Positions 10,147-55,955 of a stretch of 64,000 bases of DNA are shown here, in pieces. Each line of letters starts with the position of its first letter. Position 1 is the stretch's first letter. Under the pieces are notes generated by a model. The model was not told where the DNA came from. It saw only the letters and a list, made by a program, of their open reading frames with translations, and ran no database searches. The stretch lies in contig JAENYN010000025.1 of NCBI GenBank assembly GCA_016841765.1, forward strand, positions 1-64,000, in the 5' to 3' direction. The position numbers were made by a program, and so were the translations under genes. Origin of the DNA: Guptibacillus hwajinpoensis (GTDB lineage Bacteria > Bacillota > Bacilli > Bacillales > Bacillaceae_O).

Positions 10147-11037
10147 TTATAGCACGCTTTTTTTCGTCATTCCTTTTTGCAGGTCCTGCAGAAACACCAA
10201 TAAATCATCGCTGATTTCTTCGTTTTGCAAAGCGAACTCTATTGTCGTTTTTATAAATCCCAGTTTCTCACCTACATCAAACCTTCTGCCTTCAAAATTG
10301 TAGGCAAACACAGGCTGCTTCTCGTTGAGCTTCTGGATAGCATCCGTCAGCTGGATTTCTCCGCCCTTGCCGATTTGCTTCTTGGCAAGAAAATCAAAAA
10401 TCTTCGGTGTCAATATATACCGCCCCATGATTGCGAGGTTTGAAGGAGCGGTTCCCTGTGCCGGCTTTTCCACAAACTTTTCCACCTTATAAAGCCTGTC
10501 CTGCTGTTCAACCGGATCGATTATGCCATACCTGTGCGTCTCCTCTTCAGGAACCTTTTTGACGCCGATAACGGAAGACTGCTTCTCTTCAAATTGCTCG
10601 ATTAATTGTCGTAAGCACGGCTTTTCGGACTGTACAATATCATCCCCCAGAAGAACTGCAAAAGGCTCATTGCCGATGAATTTTCTAGCAGACCAAACCG
10701 CATGGCCCAGTCCAAGCGGCTCTTTTTGCCGGATATAATGGATTTCCGCCAGGCTGGAGGATTGCTGGACAACATCAAGCAATGCCATTTTATCTTTTTC
10801 AAGCAAGTTATTTTCCAGCTCGATTGCCCGGTCAAAATGGTCTTCAATCGCCCTTTTGCCTTTTCCCGTCACGATAATGATATCTTCGATTCCTGAAGCA
10901 ACCGCTTCTTCAATGATGTATTGAATTGTAGGTTTATCGACGATGGGCAGCATTTCCTTTGGCATCGCTTTTGTGGCCGGCAAGAAACGTGTACCAAGGC
11001 CTGCAGCAGGTATTACAGCCTTTTTGATCGTTTGCAA
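10147..11037 (-). CDS. gtaB: UTP-glucose-1-phosphate uridylyltransferase
   Basis: 296 residues, normal length. It makes UDP-glucose from UTP and glucose-1-phosphate. The nucleotide-binding signature [19 protein letters not shown] is at the N-terminus, with VLLGDDIV and [20 protein letters not shown] further on. UDP-glucose feeds glycolipid anchors of lipoteichoic acid, teichoic acid glucosylation and, through the dehydrogenase at 32559, UDP-glucuronate. Phosphoglucomutase (36919) supplies the glucose-1-phosphate. The start is TTG at 11035-11037 with GGAGGG upstream. Confidence 0.93.
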
Positions 11038-11115
11038 AATAATATACCCTCCATGTTAAACATTTTCTGCACCAGAAGTGAAGCTCCGTTTTCGCGGCCG
11101 CTCCCGAGCGTTCCA

Positions 11116-13779
11116 TCACCGGCGTTCAGCCCGCGGGGAAATTGAGTATGCCTGTCTCTTTTGGCGCCTGTACAAGAAAAACAATAAAACAAGACCCCCA
11201 GTCATTGCGAGCACTCCCGGGAAAAATCCTTCAGGAGTGTATCTCAGCTCAACTTCATGGGTTCCGTGATCGACTTCAAACCCAAGGAAAGTCTTGTGAA
11301 CCGGGAATGTTTCAACATCCTTCCCATCCACCGTCACTTTCCAGCCCTTCCGATAAGGAATCGACATGAACATTGTCCCGTCATACGCCGATTCTATGGT
11401 GCCGGTAACCTGATGTCCGTCTACACTAACATTCTTCAGACCGTTTTCCCGGTATTTCTTAATGATTTCTGGATAAGACTCCATCGAATCATTCCATACT
11501 TCAGCTCTTTTAATCCGGTAAGACCCCGGTATTAATTTCACTTGGACCGACTCGATGTCTTTTCCTCTCCCAAGCCTGAACAATACTTCCGGCACGGTGT
11601 TTTTGTAATGATATTGGCTAAGTTTAAAATAATTGCCCGATACATTTTTCCTGAAATCAAACATTTTGTTATCACCATATTGAATTTCAGCTTTTATCCC
11701 TTTATTGGGGTTCAGAGATTCAATATCGAGATAAACATAAAACATGCCCTTCTGATTGGTAAATGGGATTGAGAATGTGATTGGCTTTTTGGAATGAACG
11801 GTTTCCCCTTCACCCTCATACTCGCCGACCAGCTGCAAGTCTTTGAATGTATCTTTGCTGACGTTCTTTTTATTGCTGCTGCCGGTAGTGGCATAATGAA
11901 GCATCAGGCGGTCTCTTTTTATTGCATCTGTCTGTTCAAAAACGGAAGAATCGACAGCTTCTTCATAAACAAAACCCATGGGCAGCCAAAATTGATTTTC
12001 ATAAACCCTTGTGCCGTTCCATTCGCCTGCCTGTTCATATCCGTAAAGACGATACATATTCTGCTTTTCCTGGAATTCAAGATAATACTTGTTTCCGAGA
12101 AGTGAATTTAAGAATGTATCATTTCCGTATCCCCTTAAAAGATTAAGTCCCCTATTACCTCCCATGGCCATATAATCCATCTCGAATTTTTGCAACTCCC
12201 ATGGTGTCAAAGACTGATACGTGAAAAAATCATACACATTGTAAGTAAAAGAAGAATTCACCATCCATTTGCCAGGATAACTTATCACTGTCCTGTAAAA
12301 ACCGCCGTCTCGTTCTTCAAGTCCCTTTAATGTTTCCTGAATGCGATTTGACTGAAAAAGTGACTGATATGACGACTCGGATAAGAGCGGCAGTACTCCC
12401 CATATCCGGCTGTCCGGATTTTTCGGTTCTTCACCCCGGGCTTTAAAAACCAGATCAGTAACGAAGCTGTACTGACTGGCAGCACCATAAAATACCACAG
12501 TTATCAAAACAAATAAAACCGCTGCCATTTTCCATATGGAACCTTTTACGTACTGCCCAATGAGAAACATCGGAATAAACGCAACTGCCGCTGCCATTAG
12601 ATACGGCATATAAGCAGAATACTCCAGGTTGCCGGCTGTCATAATCCACCAAATCAATACAAGGACAAAAAGCGCTGGGTTATATAGCTTCTTCCAGTCC
12701 ACCTCACTCAGAGCAAATGTGGATGATACGAGAAGAAAGGTATGCAGGATGAACAGTCCCCTTATTTCTGCGGGATCACTGAATCCGAATAACAAACTTA
12801 AAAATTCAGGATTCTTTAACAAAAGGATAGAAAATACAGTAAGTCCTGCAAACGGCCAGAGTCGTTTCCCATTTACGAATAACAGCGGCAGGCCTGCCGC
12901 AGCCAAAAAACCCAATCCGCCTTTAATGAATAAGAGTTCGAATACCCCGCTCCAAGAGATGAACGGCTCAACTGAAAGACTGTGGCGAACCTGGGAGTTT
13001 GAATTCAAATAACTGAGTGCGGAAGGCAGGAAAACCGGCATGGCAAGCATAAGACCGAGTAAATAGAAAAGCACCCACTTCAGATGAAACGTGACGAATC
13101 CTTTGATGTTTATAGGCCTCTGAATCGCAAAGAACCTTGCAACAGCATATATACCCAGGCCAAGACTGCTCATAAACATAAAGTAGAAGTTCGAGACAGC
13201 GGATAAAAACACAAGAAAGACAAAGCCCGCGAACTTCTTTGACTGTATAAATCGCTCAAATGTGAAAAGCAGCCAGGGAAAGTACAGAGCTCCATTGACA
13301 AAGAAATAGTGGGTATAAAAATAATCAAAGTGATAGCCAGTAAACGGATACGCTATTCCGCCAAGAGCGGCAACCCACTGTTTAACCCCAAGCTTTCTCA
13401 AAAGATAGAAAACACCAAGTCCCATCAAATTGAGTTTCACAATATCGATTGGGACAAATAGTGCGGGAATGAGTGATGAAGGAAACAGCGAAATCAGCCA
13501 TGCAAACGGATCTCCGAGGACATAGTAGCCAAAATCATTCCAAAAGCTGCCCCCGATCCCGTATTGCCAGGACCAGAAGACACTTTCCCCTTCATAAACG
13601 ATATCGTGCAGCTGGTTAATAAAATGAAGATACTGCTCCCTGACATCGCCTGCTGAAGCCAGAAAGTAAAGTCCATTGGCAGGGATCCGATATAATATCA
13701 ATAGTGAACTCAGCGTAATGATAACACTGAGCACTGCCGGCCATATCATTTTATTTTTTTCTAAAAAGTCGTATTTCAC
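11116..13779 (-). CDS. yfhO: YfhO-like GT-C glycosyltransferase membrane protein
   Basis: 887 residues with about a dozen membrane helices in the N-terminal two thirds, then a large extracellular beta-rich region and one last helix (about 858-875). It matches the YfhO family. In B. subtilis, YfhO is the final transferase of a three-part system (CsbB, GtcA, YfhO) that decorates lipoteichoic acid with GlcNAc from a polyprenyl-phosphate carrier. The first helix is followed by an acidic loop (ASAGDVREQYLHF), as expected for GT-C enzymes. The start overlaps the stop of the GtcA-like gene by four bases, so the genes are probably translationally coupled. Confidence 0.85.
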   Translation of the reverse strand: MKYDFLEKNKMIWPAVLSVIITLSSLLILYRIPANGLYFLASAGDVREQYLHFINQLHDIVYEGESVFWSWQYGIGGSFWNDFGYYVLGDPFAWLISLFPSSLIPALFVPIDIVKLNLMGLGVFYLLRKLGVKQWVAALGGIAYPFTGYHFDYFYTHYFFVNGALYFPWLLFTFERFIQSKKFAGFVFLVFLSAVSNFYFMFMSSLGLGIYAVARFFAIQRPINIKGFVTFHLKWVLFYLLGLMLAMPVFLPSALSYLNSNSQVRHSLSVEPFISWSGVFELLFIKGGLGFLAAAGLPLLFVNGKRLWPFAGLTVFSILLLKNPEFLSLLFGFSDPAEIRGLFILHTFLLVSSTFALSEVDWKKLYNPALFVLVLIWWIMTAGNLEYSAYMPYLMAAAVAFIPMFLIGQYVKGSIWKMAAVLFVLITVVFYGAASQYSFVTDLVFKARGEEPKNPDSRIWGVLPLLSESSYQSLFQSNRIQETLKGLEERDGGFYRTVISYPGKWMVNSSFTYNVYDFFTYQSLTPWELQKFEMDYMAMGGNRGLNLLRGYGNDTFLNSLLGNKYYLEFQEKQNMYRLYGYEQAGEWNGTRVYENQFWLPMGFVYEEAVDSSVFEQTDAIKRDRLMLHYATTGSSNKKNVSKDTFKDLQLVGEYEGEGETVHSKKPITFSIPFTNQKGMFYVYLDIESLNPNKGIKAEIQYGDNKMFDFRKNVSGNYFKLSQYHYKNTVPEVLFRLGRGKDIESVQVKLIPGSYRIKRAEVWNDSMESYPEIIKKYRENGLKNVSVDGHQVTGTIESAYDGTMFMSIPYRKGWKVTVDGKDVETFPVHKTFLGFEVDHGTHEVELRYTPEGFFPGVLAMTGGLVLLFFLYRRQKRQAYSISPRAERR

Positions 13780-26665: not shown

Positions 26666-28342
26666 ATGATTGCGGATGAAGTTTCAAGAGAACTGGTCAG
26701 CCACAGCGCGGATAAGATTGGCTATTTGCTCAATCCTGATAACGAAAAGGACCAGCAGTTGATCAAGAACGGGCTGCAGCTGTACCGTAACGGCAACGTA
26801 TATAACATTAAAGCGGACGAAGACATGTTGTACGCGACCGTCCAGGATTTCGCCCCTTACAAGGTCGAATTGAACCTGGATTTCTTCGAACTGAGCGAAT
26901 GTGGATGCCCGACACCGGGAATTTGCGAGCACCAGCTGGGTGCATTTTTTGCGGTATACGTGAACTTTGACAGCCCCGGTGCGCTTGTGGAAGCCTGGCG
27001 CCAGACACCGACTAAAGATAAAGCGCATGGGAACTTTGTTTTCAAAACAAAATCAAACATCCGCAATACAACGGAGCTTCCATTCAACGAGCATGATCCC
27101 GATGAATGGATGGCTTTTTTCGAAAAGGAGCATGAACGGTTCCTCGAGAAAAACCAGGCCGGAGCGCGTTTTACCCGCAGTCCGCACGATATGCTCGGCC
27201 ATATTTATCACAGCTACTATGCAGGGCTTGTCCAGTATCAGCCCACTGATCCGTTCCGGACATCGCTGTACTTGATTCTCGCCGGCATTACCGGCTTCAT
27301 GAAGCTCGTTTCCTTCACCGGTGCGAATTTTTACTCGGAAAGCCAGTATGTCCATGCTCTGCCTTATATAGAAAAAATCCGTGGAGAACTTGAGGGGTTT
27401 ATCGGGAAAGCTGGCACCCTTATCCGTGATGCGGATGAAAATGCTGAAGTTATTTTGGCCAAATGCCTGCCGTACATCGAACAACTGTTAACGTTCGATC
27501 CGGCGTTTGCCGCTGACAGGCTGTGGTTTTACCGACGGATCATGAGCACCTTATATCAAGATCCGCAATGGCTCTCCCGTATCGATACGGAGATGCTGCC
27601 CCGGATCAAGGACAACGTTTTGCAGGCTTCGGAAACGTTCAGCCGTCCGTTCACGTTTGAGTACAACATTGCCCTCGCCCATTTCGCCTACATGTCGGGA
27701 CATGATGATATTGCCTTTGATGTCTTTCATGGACTGAATGCGGATGCCGTGGATTTCACCTTTTACTGGGTAAAGTTGAGCCAGGAAAACGGGGAATGGG
27801 ACCGTTCGAAACGCTGGCTCGATCTCGCCGCTAAACTGGCAGCTTCCTTATTCGAAGCCGGGAATCCCGAGGAAAACGCGGAAAGGACCGAGGTGCTGCT
27901 TGGCTTTTATAAAAAGGTTGCGGAACATAACGGGAAAGATGCAAGTTACGGACGGGCACTCCGGCGGCTGCTCCCCTACAGTTACTCCCATTATTCCGAT
28001 TATCTGGCTGGCATCAGTGATCACCGCCGTTGGGTTGAACTCCAGATTATGATGGGCTTTAACGCTTCTGATTTTAAGAAGCCGCAGATCAAGCATGTTG
28101 AAGAGAATGCACCGGAAATGCTGCTCCCGCTCTTTCATCAGTCAATCACTGCTCTCATCAATAAGAAAAGCCGCCCGGCTTACGAGCAAGCGGCATCAGA
28201 GCTTGAGCAGCTGCGCACCATTTATAAAAAAATCGAACAGAACGGAAAATGGAAAGCCTACATCACCCGGCTTGCTGAACAAACTGCCCGGCTGCGCGCC
28301 TTTCAGCAGGAATTGAAAAGAGGGAACTTGCTCCATGATTAA
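26666..28342 (+). CDS. ywqB: SWIM zinc-finger protein, partner of SNF2 helicase
   Basis: About 558 residues. Near residue 80 is the SWIM signature CGCPTPGICEHQLG (CxC then CxH), a zinc-binding DNA or protein contact module. The rest is helical with no catalytic motif. The start at 26666 is nine bases after TAGGAG; an ATG at 26657 would touch the ribosome site. The stop overlaps the SNF2 start by eight bases, so the two are coupled. The pair corresponds to B. subtilis YwqB and YwqA. Its function is unproven; a role in DNA repair or recombination is inferred. Confidence 0.82.
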   Translation: MIADEVSRELVSHSADKIGYLLNPDNEKDQQLIKNGLQLYRNGNVYNIKADEDMLYATVQDFAPYKVELNLDFFELSECGCPTPGICEHQLGAFFAVYVNFDSPGALVEAWRQTPTKDKAHGNFVFKTKSNIRNTTELPFNEHDPDEWMAFFEKEHERFLEKNQAGARFTRSPHDMLGHIYHSYYAGLVQYQPTDPFRTSLYLILAGITGFMKLVSFTGANFYSESQYVHALPYIEKIRGELEGFIGKAGTLIRDADENAEVILAKCLPYIEQLLTFDPAFAADRLWFYRRIMSTLYQDPQWLSRIDTEMLPRIKDNVLQASETFSRPFTFEYNIALAHFAYMSGHDDIAFDVFHGLNADAVDFTFYWVKLSQENGEWDRSKRWLDLAAKLAASLFEAGNPEENAERTEVLLGFYKKVAEHNGKDASYGRALRRLLPYSYSHYSDYLAGISDHRRWVELQIMMGFNASDFKKPQIKHVEENAPEMLLPLFHQSITALINKKSRPAYEQAASELEQLRTIYKKIEQNGKWKAYITRLAEQTARLRAFQQELKRGNLLHD

Positions 28343-31082
28343 CGCAGAATTTCTACGGATCAATTGCATATGGGATGAAGATTACCGATTTCATGTTCAT
28401 GCCGAGGATGAAACCGGCCAGGCGCTTGAACCAGAAAAATGGAAGAATACCGTTTTCGCCTGGCATGAATCGTCTTTATATGGGACAGAGCTTGTGACCG
28501 AACGGGACCAAGTCATCCTGACAGCAGGAGAAGCACTCGACTTCTTGGTACGGACCAGGCTTCCCTCGCTAATCCCCATCCTCTTCATCGGCGAAGCGGA
28601 CGAAGCGAGGGAAACAGCGGAAAAGCTGGCCCCCATCCTTGAAGAAAAAAAATACAAACCCGACTTCACCGCCTGGCAAAACGGCAAAACCTCATGGACC
28701 GCCGATCAAGATAACCTCGGCAGCTTCGCAACAGGCTGGCTCTCTGCGCTAATAAACGAAAAAGCCACTGAAGACCGGCGTTTGCGGGAAGTTGTAAACC
28801 GTTTGAATGCCTGGCAATTGCCAGGCAACCATGAGTCAAAAGACCTACAATTGCCTGGCAATTCCCAGGCAATTCCCTCACACCTTGATGAGGGGATGTG
28901 GCTTGAAAAAATAGGGTGGCAGGCTGGGGACATGCCGTTTTCGGTTGCCCTTCGGCTGGAGGAGCCGTCGGCCGGCCTGCAGGATTGGAAGCTGGAAACG
29001 ATTTTAATAGACGAGGAAACCGGGCATCATTACGGGCTTGAGGATCATGAACTCCCTGATGGCTGGGAGGATTACCTGCCAAAAGCGGAACAGGAGCGGA
29101 AATACTGGGGACAGCTTGCTGGCAGCACATGGCTGGATGACTACGGGTTGCTGAAAACGCAGATTGATGAACAGGAAGCATGGACTTTTCTGAACGAAAC
29201 GAGCCTCATGCTCGCCCGCGCCGGAGTAACGATTTTGCTTCCATCCTGGTGGGTGAACGAAAACAGGCCGGGAGCGAAATTGAAAGCCGAAGTAACTTCG
29301 CCGTTCATAACCGGCCGCTCATTCGTCGGCCTCAATGCTGTCGTTGATTTTAACTGGAAAGTGGCGATTGGCAATAAAGACTTCACCGAAGATGAATTTG
29401 CAAAATTGATAAAAGACAATCACCGGCTTATACAAGTACAAAATCAATGGTTTGTGCTGGATGATGCCACGATATCCCGTTTGCAAAAGCGGCTTGAAAA
29501 TGAAAAGCAGCATGACCGCAGGGCAATCGAAGTGTTTCAGAATAAACTGGCTGAAGAGGACGGAGACGAAATTCAGTATCATCTGAACGATGATTGGGAA
29601 ACGGCTTTCAGCCGCCTGCTTGAAGCCGATCACCTTCCGGAACAGCCGCTTCCAAACGGACTAGAAGGCACGCTGCGTCCCTATCAGCTCGAAGGATACC
29701 GCTGGCTTGCCTATTTGCGTAAGCTCGGCCTGGGCGCCCTCCTTGCCGATGATATGGGCCTCGGAAAAACGATCCAACTGATCGCTTATCTTTTGTACAT
29801 GAAAAAAGAAGAACAGGTCCGGCGGCCGGCGCTTATCATTGCTCCGACATCCGTAATCGGGAACTGGCAAAAAGAGCTTGAACGCTTCGCTCCTGACTTG
29901 AAAGTCCATCTCCATTACGGGCCGGCCCGAAAAAAAGACACCGATTTTCTATACAAAGCCATGAAAGCAGATATTGTCCTGACGACGTATGGGCTTTCCG
30001 CACAAGACAGGACGACAATCAGCCAGATGATCTGGAGCGCAGTCTGCCTTGATGAGGCGCAAAATATAAAAAATGTCCAGACGAAACAGAGCAAGGCAAT
30101 CCGGAGCCTGAGTGCAGACCACCGCGTGGCGCTGACCGGCACGCCAATGGAAAACCGGCTCTCGGAACTGTGGTCGATTATGGATTTCCTGAACCCCGGT
30201 TATCTTGGCAGCCTGGCATCCTTTAAGAAACGATTTATCTTGCCTGTGGAACGCGACAATGAAACCGGCAAAATCGAACAGCTGCAAAAACTGATTCAGC
30301 CGTTCATCTTGCGGCGCACAAAAACGGACCCGAAAATCGCACTCGATTTACCGGAAAAGCAGGAACAAAAAGAATACTGCCCGCTTTCTGCTGAACAGGC
30401 TTCCCTCTATGAGCAGGTTGTCGACGACACGTTCAACCAGGTGGAAAAACTCGCGGGAATGCAGCGGCGCGGATTGATTCTTTCCTCTCTGAACCGGCTG
30501 AAACAATTGTGTGACCACCCCGCATTGTTTTTGAAGGAGCAGGAAGCGCGGAAACCGGTAAAACGGTCAGCAAAAATGGAAAAAGTCGTCGACCTGGTTG
30601 AAAATATTCTCGACCGGGAGGAGCAATGCCTGATTTTCACCCAGTATGTCGGAATGGGGCATCTGATTGAAAAAGTAATCAAAGAGCAATTCGGAGTGCC
30701 GGTGCTGTTTATGCATGGTGGCATCAGCAAGCAATCCCGCGATGATATGATCAGCCGCTTCCAGGAAAGGGAAGTGCCGGTATTCGTGCTTTCGCTTCGG
30801 GCTGGCGGCACCGGGCTCAACCTGACAGCGGCCAACCACGTCATCCATTATGACCGCTGGTGGAACCCCGCCGTCGAAAACCAGGCCACCGACCGGGCAT
30901 ACCGAATCGGCCAAAACCGGTTCGTACACGTACACAAACTCATCTCACCAGGAACACTCGAAGAACGAATCGACGAAATGCTCCAGACCAAACAAGAACT
31001 CAACGACCAAATCATCAGCAGCGAACAATGGATAACAGAACTCTCCACCGATGAACTCAGAGAACTGTTTGAACTGGGGTAA
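28335..31082 (+). CDS. ywqA: SNF2-family DNA-dependent ATPase
   Basis: 915 residues. A family-specific N-terminal region (1-430) is followed by the two RecA-like lobes. Motifs: I LADDMGLGKTIQL, II CLDEAQNIKN, III ALTGTPMENRLSEL, V SLRAGGTGLNLT, VI QATDRAYRIGQ. SNF2 enzymes translocate on double-stranded DNA and remodel nucleoprotein complexes. Odd point: residues about 159-181 (starting AWQLPGNHESKDLQLPGNSQ) are encoded by an inserted palindromic repeat element in frame, in the region between the N-terminal part and the motor. The reading frame is intact, so the protein is probably tolerant of it. Confidence 0.9.
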   Translation: MINAEFLRINCIWDEDYRFHVHAEDETGQALEPEKWKNTVFAWHESSLYGTELVTERDQVILTAGEALDFLVRTRLPSLIPILFIGEADEARETAEKLAPILEEKKYKPDFTAWQNGKTSWTADQDNLGSFATGWLSALINEKATEDRRLREVVNRLNAWQLPGNHESKDLQLPGNSQAIPSHLDEGMWLEKIGWQAGDMPFSVALRLEEPSAGLQDWKLETILIDEETGHHYGLEDHELPDGWEDYLPKAEQERKYWGQLAGSTWLDDYGLLKTQIDEQEAWTFLNETSLMLARAGVTILLPSWWVNENRPGAKLKAEVTSPFITGRSFVGLNAVVDFNWKVAIGNKDFTEDEFAKLIKDNHRLIQVQNQWFVLDDATISRLQKRLENEKQHDRRAIEVFQNKLAEEDGDEIQYHLNDDWETAFSRLLEADHLPEQPLPNGLEGTLRPYQLEGYRWLAYLRKLGLGALLADDMGLGKTIQLIAYLLYMKKEEQVRRPALIIAPTSVIGNWQKELERFAPDLKVHLHYGPARKKDTDFLYKAMKADIVLTTYGLSAQDRTTISQMIWSAVCLDEAQNIKNVQTKQSKAIRSLSADHRVALTGTPMENRLSELWSIMDFLNPGYLGSLASFKKRFILPVERDNETGKIEQLQKLIQPFILRRTKTDPKIALDLPEKQEQKEYCPLSAEQASLYEQVVDDTFNQVEKLAGMQRRGLILSSLNRLKQLCDHPALFLKEQEARKPVKRSAKMEKVVDLVENILDREEQCLIFTQYVGMGHLIEKVIKEQFGVPVLFMHGGISKQSRDDMISRFQEREVPVFVLSLRAGGTGLNLTAANHVIHYDRWWNPAVENQATDRAYRIGQNRFVHVHKLISPGTLEERIDEMLQTKQELNDQIISSEQWITELSTDELRELFELG
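28808..28827. repeat. REP-like unit inside ywqA, first half
   Basis: Perfect TGCCTGGCAATTGCCAGGCA within the SNF2 coding sequence. It is joined to a second unit by a 20-base linker containing GAGTCAAAAGACCTA. Confidence 0.9.
28849..28874. repeat. REP-like unit inside ywqA, second half
   Basis: Near-palindrome with TTGCCTGGCAATTCCCAGGC as core and AATT ends. The pair with the preceding copy forms a composite element of about 67 bases in frame with the gene. Confidence 0.85.
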
Positions 31083-31099: not shown

Positions 31100-31125
31100 A
31101 ATTGCCTGGGAACTCCCAGGCAATT
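31100..31125. repeat. REP-like unit after ywqA, first half
   Basis: AATTGCCTGGGA and TCCCAGGCAATT arms with AC centre, 18 bases after the SNF2 stop codon. It has the same two-unit design as the copy inside the gene. Confidence 0.9.
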
Positions 31126-31143
31126 GTGAGTAAAAAGACCTAT

Positions 31144-31169
31144 GATTGCCTGGTAATTGCCAGGCAATC
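31144..31169. repeat. REP-like unit after ywqA, second half
   Basis: GATTGCCTGGTAATTGCCAG continuing to GCAATC, separated from the first unit by GTGAGTAAAAAGACCTAT. Confidence 0.9.
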
Positions 31170-31770: not shown

Positions 31771-32388
31771 TTATTTCTTCACTTTCATCCGTTCAGGATC
31801 TTGTATCCGCGAATCCCTCCAATCTGGCTTAAGATTTGAAAAGTCGACTGAGAGTTCAGGTTCTTGAAGGAAATCATAATAGGCTTTGCGTTCAGGGGCT
31901 TTGAAATGAGTTAAAAGGGAGGTTGAGGTAAGACGGGGATCGAATGCGCCTGTTACATACGATTTGCAGCTGCTCCAGGGGTAATCTTCCGCGTTTTTCA
32001 CAAGACCTGCTTCGACCGGGTTCAGGTGTATGTATTTTGAAGTCGCCAGTTTGTCGTCAATGCTTGTTATCTGTGTTGCAAAATAAGGTCCCTGAAATAC
32101 ATGGCCGCTTGATTCATGAGTGCGATTGAAGTAGACAGCATAACGATGATTGAGTTTTTGCATGATAGGCCCGAGCGGAGTCTCATCAACTTCAATCAGC
32201 AGATGAACGTGATTGGTCATCAAGCAATAGGCATGGAGTTCAAAAGGGAATACCTGGCGGGTATCACGGAGGAGATCGAAGTATTTCAAACGGTCGCGGT
32301 CGTGAAAAAAGATGGGAGCACGCCGGCTCCCTCTGGAGACAACGTGATACAGGGCACCCGGAAACCAGCCAATCCGGTTTCGAGGCAT
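31771..32388 (-). CDS. REP-associated tyrosine transposase-like protein (RAYT, Y1 family)
   Basis: 205 residues, of the Transposase_17/IS200-like Y1 HUH superfamily in its RAYT branch. The N-terminus has WFPGALYHVVSRGSRRAPIF, the metal-binding HUH motif is NHVHLLIE (H60, H62), a GHVFQGPYFATQI segment follows, and the likely catalytic tyrosine is Y119 in SKYIHLNPVEAGLV. RAYTs process single-stranded hairpins of REP repeats and occur as single host-adapted genes rather than as insertion sequences. REP-like palindromes lie on both sides (31100-31169 and 32539-32558). There are no terminal inverted repeats or target duplications visible at its ends. AAGGAG precedes the ATG. It looks intact. Confidence 0.85.
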   Translation of the reverse strand: MPRNRIGWFPGALYHVVSRGSRRAPIFFHDRDRLKYFDLLRDTRQVFPFELHAYCLMTNHVHLLIEVDETPLGPIMQKLNHRYAVYFNRTHESSGHVFQGPYFATQITSIDDKLATSKYIHLNPVEAGLVKNAEDYPWSSCKSYVTGAFDPRLTSTSLLTHFKAPERKAYYDFLQEPELSVDFSNLKPDWRDSRIQDPERMKVKK

Positions 32389-32529: not shown

Positions 32530-32538
32530 AACAAAAAA

Positions 32539-32558
32539 TGCCTGGCAATTGCGAGGCA
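32539..32558. repeat. REP-like unit abutting the ugd stop codon
   Basis: TGCCTGGCAATTGCGAGGCA lies immediately after the TGA of ugd (minus strand). On that strand it is followed by TTTTTTG, so it can act as the terminator. Confidence 0.85.
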
Positions 32559-33887
32559 TCAAAACGTATTTTCTGTAACGTTCACAACCGGGCGGCGCCC
32601 GATTGAATAATATTCGACCGGGTGTTTTGCCGCTTCCTCAAGGGAATGGCAGTTGCGGCCGTCAAAGATGACAGGTGTCTTCATTAGGGCAGCATAGTTA
32701 TCAAAAGAGATGTCCTTGATTTCTTCCCACTCGGTAACAAGGAATGCCATATCGGTATCCTGTAAAGCTTCTTCTCCGCTCTTTGCATAGTTTATGCGAT
32801 TGCCCAGAATTTCTTTTGTTTTAGGGATGGCTGCCGGATCATAGGCGATAACATCCACCTCTTCAAATAATAGCATGTCAATAAGGACCATAGAGGCCGC
32901 TTCACGTATGTCATCGGTGTTTGGCTTAAAGGAAAGCCCAAGGACCGCCGCCTTTTTCCCTTTTAAATGTTCGAATCGTCCCTTTGCCTTATCAAACAAG
33001 ACGGACTGCTGCCTGTTATTCACTTTGATGACTGACTCAAGCAGTTCGAATTTATGATCGGAATTGCCGGCTATCTGGACAAGCGCCCGTGTATCCTTAG
33101 GAAAACAGGATCCACCGTATCCGATTCCTGCCCGTAAAAACTGGTCACCAATCCGCTTGTCCATCCCCATTCCGGCTGCGACAGACTCGATATCAGCACC
33201 CAGCTTCTCGCAGATACTGGCAATTTCATTGATAAAACTGACTTTTGCGGCCAAAAACGCATTGGATGCATACTTGGTCATTTCAGCACTGCGTAAATCC
33301 GTCCGCAAAATCGGGATTCCAAACGGCTTATTTATCGAAGCCACAACATCTGCTGCCTGCTCAGATTCGGCACCGATGATTATCCGCTCGCCGTGAAACA
33401 TGTCATGAACCGCCGATCCTTCCCGCAAAAACTCAGGATTGGAGACAACCTCCGCCTTCAACCCACGGTCCTTTAATTGCCCGTTAAGCAGTTCGCTGAT
33501 TTTTTCATTCGTTCCAACAGGAACAGTGCTTTTCACTACTACGACAACATTGTTCATAACCGATCGGGCGATTTGTTCCGCAGCTCTGAATAGATAAGAC
33601 AGATCAGCCGAACCATCGGCAGCTTGCGGTGTCGGGACAGCAATATAAATGACTTCAGCCTGCCGGTATGCTTCTTCAGGCAGATCGGTAAAGATGAGCC
33701 GGCCAGCCGCAACATTCTTCTTCAGCAAATTTGGTACCTCAGGTTCATAAAACGGTGATTTTCCTTGCTTCAATTGCTTAACTTTCAAACGATCAATATC
33801 ATAACAGGCCACATCATGGCCGATATCGGCAAGGCAAACACCGGTTACCAGTCCAACATAACCCGTGCCGGCAATGGCAATCCGCAT
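32559..33887 (-). CDS. ugd: UDP-glucose 6-dehydrogenase
   Basis: 442 residues. It oxidises UDP-glucose to UDP-glucuronate with two NAD+. The NAD-binding motif IAGTGYVGLVTGVCLA is at the N-terminus; VSNPEFLREGSA, the catalytic cysteine in GYGGSCFPKDTRAL and GLSFKPNTDDIREA are all present. GtaB supplies the substrate. The product could feed teichuronic acid or another exopolymer (TuaD/YwqF-type); no polymer cluster is visible here. The ATG at 33887 follows AGGGGGA; an upstream start at 33911 is less likely. Confidence 0.92.
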   Translation of the reverse strand: MRIAIAGTGYVGLVTGVCLADIGHDVACYDIDRLKVKQLKQGKSPFYEPEVPNLLKKNVAAGRLIFTDLPEEAYRQAEVIYIAVPTPQAADGSADLSYLFRAAEQIARSVMNNVVVVVKSTVPVGTNEKISELLNGQLKDRGLKAEVVSNPEFLREGSAVHDMFHGERIIIGAESEQAADVVASINKPFGIPILRTDLRSAEMTKYASNAFLAAKVSFINEIASICEKLGADIESVAAGMGMDKRIGDQFLRAGIGYGGSCFPKDTRALVQIAGNSDHKFELLESVIKVNNRQQSVLFDKAKGRFEHLKGKKAAVLGLSFKPNTDDIREAASMVLIDMLLFEEVDVIAYDPAAIPKTKEILGNRINYAKSGEEALQDTDMAFLVTEWEEIKDISFDNYAALMKTPVIFDGRNCHSLEEAAKHPVEYYSIGRRPVVNVTENTF

Positions 33888-35806: not shown

Positions 35807-35848
35807 TGCCTGGCAATTGCCTGGGAGGTCCCAGGCAATTGCCAGGCA
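35807..35848. repeat. REP-like compound palindrome, 42 bp
   Basis: Perfect 20-base arms TGCCTGGCAATTGCCTGGGA and its complement around GG. It is followed by TTATTTGCAACTA, the same flank as in the copy at 36790. Confidence 0.92.
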
Positions 35849-35923
35849 TTATTTGCAACTAAGTGTAACTCCTCCCATTTTGGGTAGAGTAGGAATAAAA
35901 CAGCTGATGGAGGTGTGGATTGT

Positions 35924-36789: not shown

Positions 36790-36831
36790 TGCCTGGCAAT
36801 TGCCTGGGAAGTCCCAGGCAATTGCCAGGCA
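36790..36831. repeat. REP-like compound palindrome, 42 bp
   Basis: Same arms as the copy at 35807, with AG centre and the same downstream flank TTATTTGCAACTA. Confidence 0.92.
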
Positions 36832-36860
36832 TTATTTGCAACTAGCTCCCACGCCAAACA

Positions 36861-55913: not shown

Positions 55914-55955
55914 TGCCTGGCAATTGCCTGGGACTTCCCAGGCAATTGCCAGGCA
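55914..55955. repeat. REP-like compound palindrome, 42 bp
   Basis: 20-base arms TGCCTGGCAATTGCCTGGGA around CT. It is preceded by AAAGACCTATGA, the second half of the linker of the two-unit element. Confidence 0.92.

Follow-up and report, generated by a model that had tools for sequence, protein, structure and literature searches.

Within the window, i.e., the whole 64,000-nt stretch of DNA that was analysed, a gene for an SNF2-family ATPase carries a doublet of short palindromes inside its reading frame, and a gene resembling those of REP-associated tyrosine transposases (RAYTs) lies 0.7 kb downstream of it. The features of the locus, with their conservation in the congener G001, are as follows:

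28335..31082, + strand: SNF2-family ATPase gene (YwqA-like), host of the element, 915 codons (ORF; Pfam SNF2-rel_dom, DUF3670, Helicase_C)
28806..28877, + strand: codons 158-181, encoded by or spanning the element (NAWQLPGNHESKDLQLPGNSQAIP), a predicted disordered loop
28807..28828, no strand assigned: palindromic unit 1, ATGCCTGGCAATTGCCAGGCAA; 21/22 identical in G001
28829..28850, + strand: linker CCATGAGTCAAAAGACCTACAA, about TTATGAGTNNAAAGACCTATGA in other doublets; 19/22 identical in G001
28851..28872, no strand assigned: palindromic unit 2, TTGCCTGGCAATTCCCAGGCAA; 22/22 identical in G001
31102..31167, + strand: second doublet, similar in type to the first, intergenic, just 3' of the SNF2 gene, in direct orientation relative to the first; conserved in G001
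31774..32388, - strand: RAYT-like gene, 205 aa (Pfam Y1_Tnp; NCBIfam NF047646, 78.5 bits against a cut-off of 80); 95% identical in G001
32538..32559, no strand assigned: isolated core of the repeat, lying about 150 nt before the start of the RAYT gene; G001 has a longer copy there

The element in the SNF2 gene consists of two 22-nt palindromes and a 22-nt linker (spacing 44, 66 nt in total). The reading frame runs unbroken through it, giving residues about 158-181, in which LPGN is encoded twice (residues 162-165 and 173-176). The original prediction of a REP-like, two-unit element lying in frame in this gene and encoding two LPGN motifs is thereby borne out: the 915-codon ORF is intact and the units match a repeat family. 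The proposed limits, 28808-28874, are best moved to 28807-28872. The element was also correctly placed outside the ATPase motifs, as the Pfam domains begin at residue 275 (DUF3670, 275-400; SNF2 motors, 450-859) and the element lies N-terminal to them. In an AlphaFold2 model (45 input sequences, mean pLDDT 82), residues 163-179 form the sole stretch of the protein with pLDDT below 50, flanked by helices at 148-159 and 186-192. As RNA, the doublet is predicted to form a single long hairpin (-39.2 kcal/mol, z -6.9); an Rfam search with the element gave no match. All six frames of the palindromic core are free of stop codons.

These features raise a key question: does the segment belong to a family of repeats, or is it an ancestral protein loop whose likeness to such a family arose by chance or convergence? 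A degenerate form of the core matched 41 times in the window compared with none in 100 shuffles, and genome-wide (4.27 Mb) it gave 191 forward matches compared with two for a reversed-pattern control. Each unit is an almost perfect palindrome built from 11-nt modules (TGCCTGGCAAT or a variant of it), and the units are often lengthened into bigger hairpins. With at most one mismatch allowed, the two congeners have 56 and 55 copies of the core, and the 395 other genomes searched from the order have none; the family is genus-specific within this set of genomes. This genome has three full doublets whose linker is of the SNF2 type (in the SNF2 gene, at 31102-31167 and on contig C74), and G001 has four. 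With short palindromes, high copy number and mostly intergenic positions, the family is REP-like in the broad sense, and the SNF2 doublet has the arrangement of a REPIN, in which two inverted units and a spacer give one long hairpin, although such full doublets are few. Of the foot tetranucleotides, GTAG was found in 0 of 94 cores (random control, 1) and GTGG in 3 of 94 (random control, 7), while the CGTC end tag of the REP group that includes RPE-4/6 was found in 0 of 94 (control, 8). Because the GTAG and CGTC tags are absent, the family stands outside the GTAG and CGTC superfamilies, though it is similar to them in behaviour. In one subfamily, a conserved flank, ATTATTTGCAACTAG, follows the palindrome on its 3' side (window positions 35807-35860 and 36790-36843; L147:7234; L160:16320; L198:10378; L222:7771-8370); at L222 it occurs several times within 600 nt, G001 aligning to a single copy, and it is possibly a recently mobile form.

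The homologues of the host protein bear on the same question. In G001, the sole congener compared, the SNF2 protein is 87% identical and carries the element at the same codons; most simply, therefore, the element is older than the split of the two species. Outside the genus, we compared 108 homologue loci of about 50% identity or less, a few of them the same genome fetched twice. The LPGN peptide is absent from all of them, and the loop at this place is unrelated and about 8-12 residues shorter: counted in the alignment from the column of residue 149 to that of residue 186, both congeners have 38 residues and most homologues 26-30. The original prediction of about 23 added codons (159-181) is close to the coded span (24 codons, 158-181) but exceeds the net gain, and because the protein gained fewer residues than the element's 22-24 codons would supply, either the host gave up some codons or its ancestral loop was different. 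Aligned homologues had been expected to lack the element and to reveal an exact insertion point. The former was observed at all 108 loci; the latter was not, as the loop there is shorter and unrelated, and neither G001 nor these loci offer an exact empty site. With the element present in the sole close relative and the loop of the distant homologues shorter and unrelated, a clean insertion looks the same as a replacement, and presence/absence cases among the alignable sites of the two species are too ragged, and not numerous enough, for a target or a duplication to be recognised. The loop region varies in length among homologues by nature, as an ancestral loop might, but the 66 nt fit the family architecture down to the linker common to the intergenic doublets. 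Together with the empty shuffles and the restriction of LPGN to the genus, this makes an ancestral loop highly improbable, and chance likeness to the repeat family is in practice ruled out.

Another important question is how often such repeats enter genes. We surveyed stretches picked partly for having repeats, 1.2 Mb in total from this genome and 0.77 Mb from G001. The 1.2 Mb, 79% of which is coding, held 95 sites: 83 intergenic, nine touching ORF edges and three nominally deep in coding DNA, of which the SNF2 site is the sole convincing one. Therefore, coding insertions are strongly depleted relative to the coding share (binomial p about 1e-62), by avoidance or by selective removal, and the idea that insertion generally tolerates coding DNA is not supported. 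Three other candidates (gene names from reading translations) were rejected. The ORFs of an arginine deiminase (L226) and an MFS transporter (L234) reach too far upstream, beyond the probable start codon, and the match in prmC of G001 reads as ordinary methyltransferase sequence (PSLAIARQNA).

The comparison with G001 allows the DNA to be considered separately from the protein. Third codon positions are identical in 23 of the 24 element codons and in 558 of 891 codons of the rest of the gene (Fisher p 2.4e-4), which indicates that the DNA is conserved and not the protein alone; such figures are inflated because the repeats were chosen for matching the consensus in this genome, and under a worst-case correction for this ascertainment p is about 0.045. 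Elsewhere in the gene, every 24-codon window has at most 21 identical third positions. Within the element, the palindromes are identical at 43 of 44 positions with no synonymous change, while the linker has three differences and two of its codons alter the amino acid. Thus, as far as one aligned gene pair can tell, palindrome DNA rather than the peptide as such appears to be what was preserved. The same tendency is seen elsewhere, with the same caveat of ascertainment: of 49 orthologous cores, almost all of them between genes, 42 are conserved, with a mean identity of 0.91 against 0.75 in the flanks (p 2.5e-6). Since intergenic copies behave alike, the constancy is probably a property of the repeat and not of the new protein segment. 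Moreover, 44 of 47 alignable sites carry the core in G001 as well, indicating that the family is old and mostly static.

If template switching rewrites palindromes, arm swaps and gains or losses of modules are to be expected; several copies differ between the species in these ways. At window position 55924 and at L150:3397, L197:6190 and L223:4228, the inner hairpin is inverted relative to G001 (TTGCCTCGCAA to TTGCGAGGCAA) or the arms have changed symmetrically, which suggests rewriting of this kind. Selection, self-correction and, in part, ascertainment are all candidate causes of the constancy. One alternative is that the hairpin within the gene is itself selected as nucleic acid, either at the DNA level, as a site for a protein (possibly the RAYT), or at the mRNA level, as a hairpin tuning SNF2 expression, the same DNA serving as code and signal. 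The contrast between the palindromes and the two altered linker codons speaks for it, as do the strength of the predicted hairpin and the conservation of intergenic copies. However, ascertainment weakens the conservation test, which rests on one gene pair, and the hairpin has neither an Rfam match nor a known protein or RNA partner; we regard this alternative as unlikely.

The second doublet, 2.2 kb downstream, suggests a different source: the element could have come from it by local duplication or recombination instead of transposition. Two of the three such doublets of the genome do lie here in the same orientation, but in both species the linker of one copy is consistently distinct from that of the other (CC..ACAA versus TT..ATGA), which implies no recent exchange, and we consider local duplication unlikely as well. 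Gene conversion between the two doublets was likewise rejected, as their linkers disagree. In the SNF2 frame, the downstream linker (31124-31145) would read TAA and TGA, and the SNF2 linker (28829-28850) has sense codons in both species (TCA or CAA, and CAA). Removal of stops from the SNF2 linkers was considered and found not significant, two of five intergenic doublets also being open in that frame.

Repeats surround the RAYT-like gene, with the core about 150 nt on its 5' side and the doublet about 0.6 kb on its 3' side; its NCBIfam score falls 1.5 bits under the cut-off. The 205-aa protein is at most about 53% identical to relatives outside the genus. From this proximity and the shared genus restriction, we infer that the RAYT-like enzyme spread the repeats. 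A second RAYT-like gene (L200, about 11000-12500; G000:C35, 31.0-32.5 kb) scores 87.2 bits, above the NCBIfam cut-off, and has palindromes of about 45 nt (GTGCCTGACCCC...GGGGTCAGGCACC) on both sides, of a family distinct from the SNF2 one; possibly each RAYT has its own palindrome family. In other Bacillales genomes, GGGGTCAGG palindromes lie no more than 600 nt from about one in three of the RAYT relatives retrieved (L247, L248, L249, L250, L258, L262, L264, L268, L270), and several of these relatives have AAAAGTGTCC...GGACACTTTT hairpins as well; these may be undescribed repeat-RAYT pairs.

Overall, we consider it probable that the SNF2 gene acquired its doublet, which stems from an untagged REP-like palindrome family restricted to this genus, in a common ancestor of the two species; the neighbouring RAYT-like transposase is the likely agent. 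The doublet would have survived by landing in a tolerant loop between two modelled helices, helped by a core free of stops in six frames and a 66-nt length equal to a whole number of codons. The outcome would be 24 codons for a loop predicted to be disordered, with the palindrome DNA retained by self-correction during replication or by selection on the hairpin, probably as a property of the repeat.

The element is thus a genuine, ancestral and tolerated intragenic REP-like doublet, apparently new for this lineage though of a kind already described in other phyla; we found no description of such repeats in Bacillales in the literature examined. It offers a clear case of a bacterial repeated palindrome that has become part of a conserved protein and persisted through speciation. 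Whether peptide or palindrome is preserved, two questions often merged, can here be separated, the answer pointing to the palindrome. Moreover, the family provides over 40 orthologous sites aligned between two species, on which self-correction of palindromes can be tested against selection. A bolder reading, which we hold to be doubtful, is that selection has kept the palindromes in the SNF2 frame as a DNA or RNA signal. One stretch would then combine the remains of a mobile repeat with a protein loop and a functional hairpin, and would be linked to a RAYT system of Bacillales that is untagged and confined to the genus.

In-frame intragenic REP dimers of 20-30 residues, from the GTAG and CGTC superfamilies, are known from several species outside Rickettsia, in other phyla (BMC Genomics 2013, PMC3733652). 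Many lie in DNA synthesis and repair genes, sometimes in the sole decorated gene of a species, and the part of the survey text available to us names no Bacillus case. The original remark that such an insertion is unusual in a Bacillus protein has to be qualified, given the dimers documented in several bacteria other than Rickettsia. The SNF2 doublet resembles these dimers in being an in-frame palindrome dimer of 20-30 residues in a lone decorated, DNA-handling gene; it differs in its family's lack of a GTAG or CGTC foot, its Bacillales host and the same-site, DNA-level constancy measured across two species. Rickettsia palindromic elements (RPEs), reported as in-frame insertions in numerous genes of a single genome (PMC10969869), are the extreme case of intragenic palindromes and likewise make new protein segments; the SNF2 family has one convincing site in 95, and the likeness meant here is one of behaviour. 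According to PMC6006769, TIRYT-type Y1 transposases have GGGG[AT][CG]A[CG] inverted repeats. The GTGCCTGACCCC palindromes on both sides of the second RAYT-like gene contain GGGGTCAG, which fits this motif, and several relatives show this arrangement too, whereas the SNF2 family is TGCCTGGCAAT-based and lacks it. From the REPIN-RAYT/TnpA-REP systems (PMC3116915, PMC2817692, PMC6006769), the SNF2 family differs in lacking the GT[AG]G guide tetranucleotide and in its near-perfect palindromes of 11-nt modules; it shares with them the inverted palindrome pair that forms one long hairpin, the high-copy, mostly intergenic repeats and a putative Y1 transposase gene with copies nearby.
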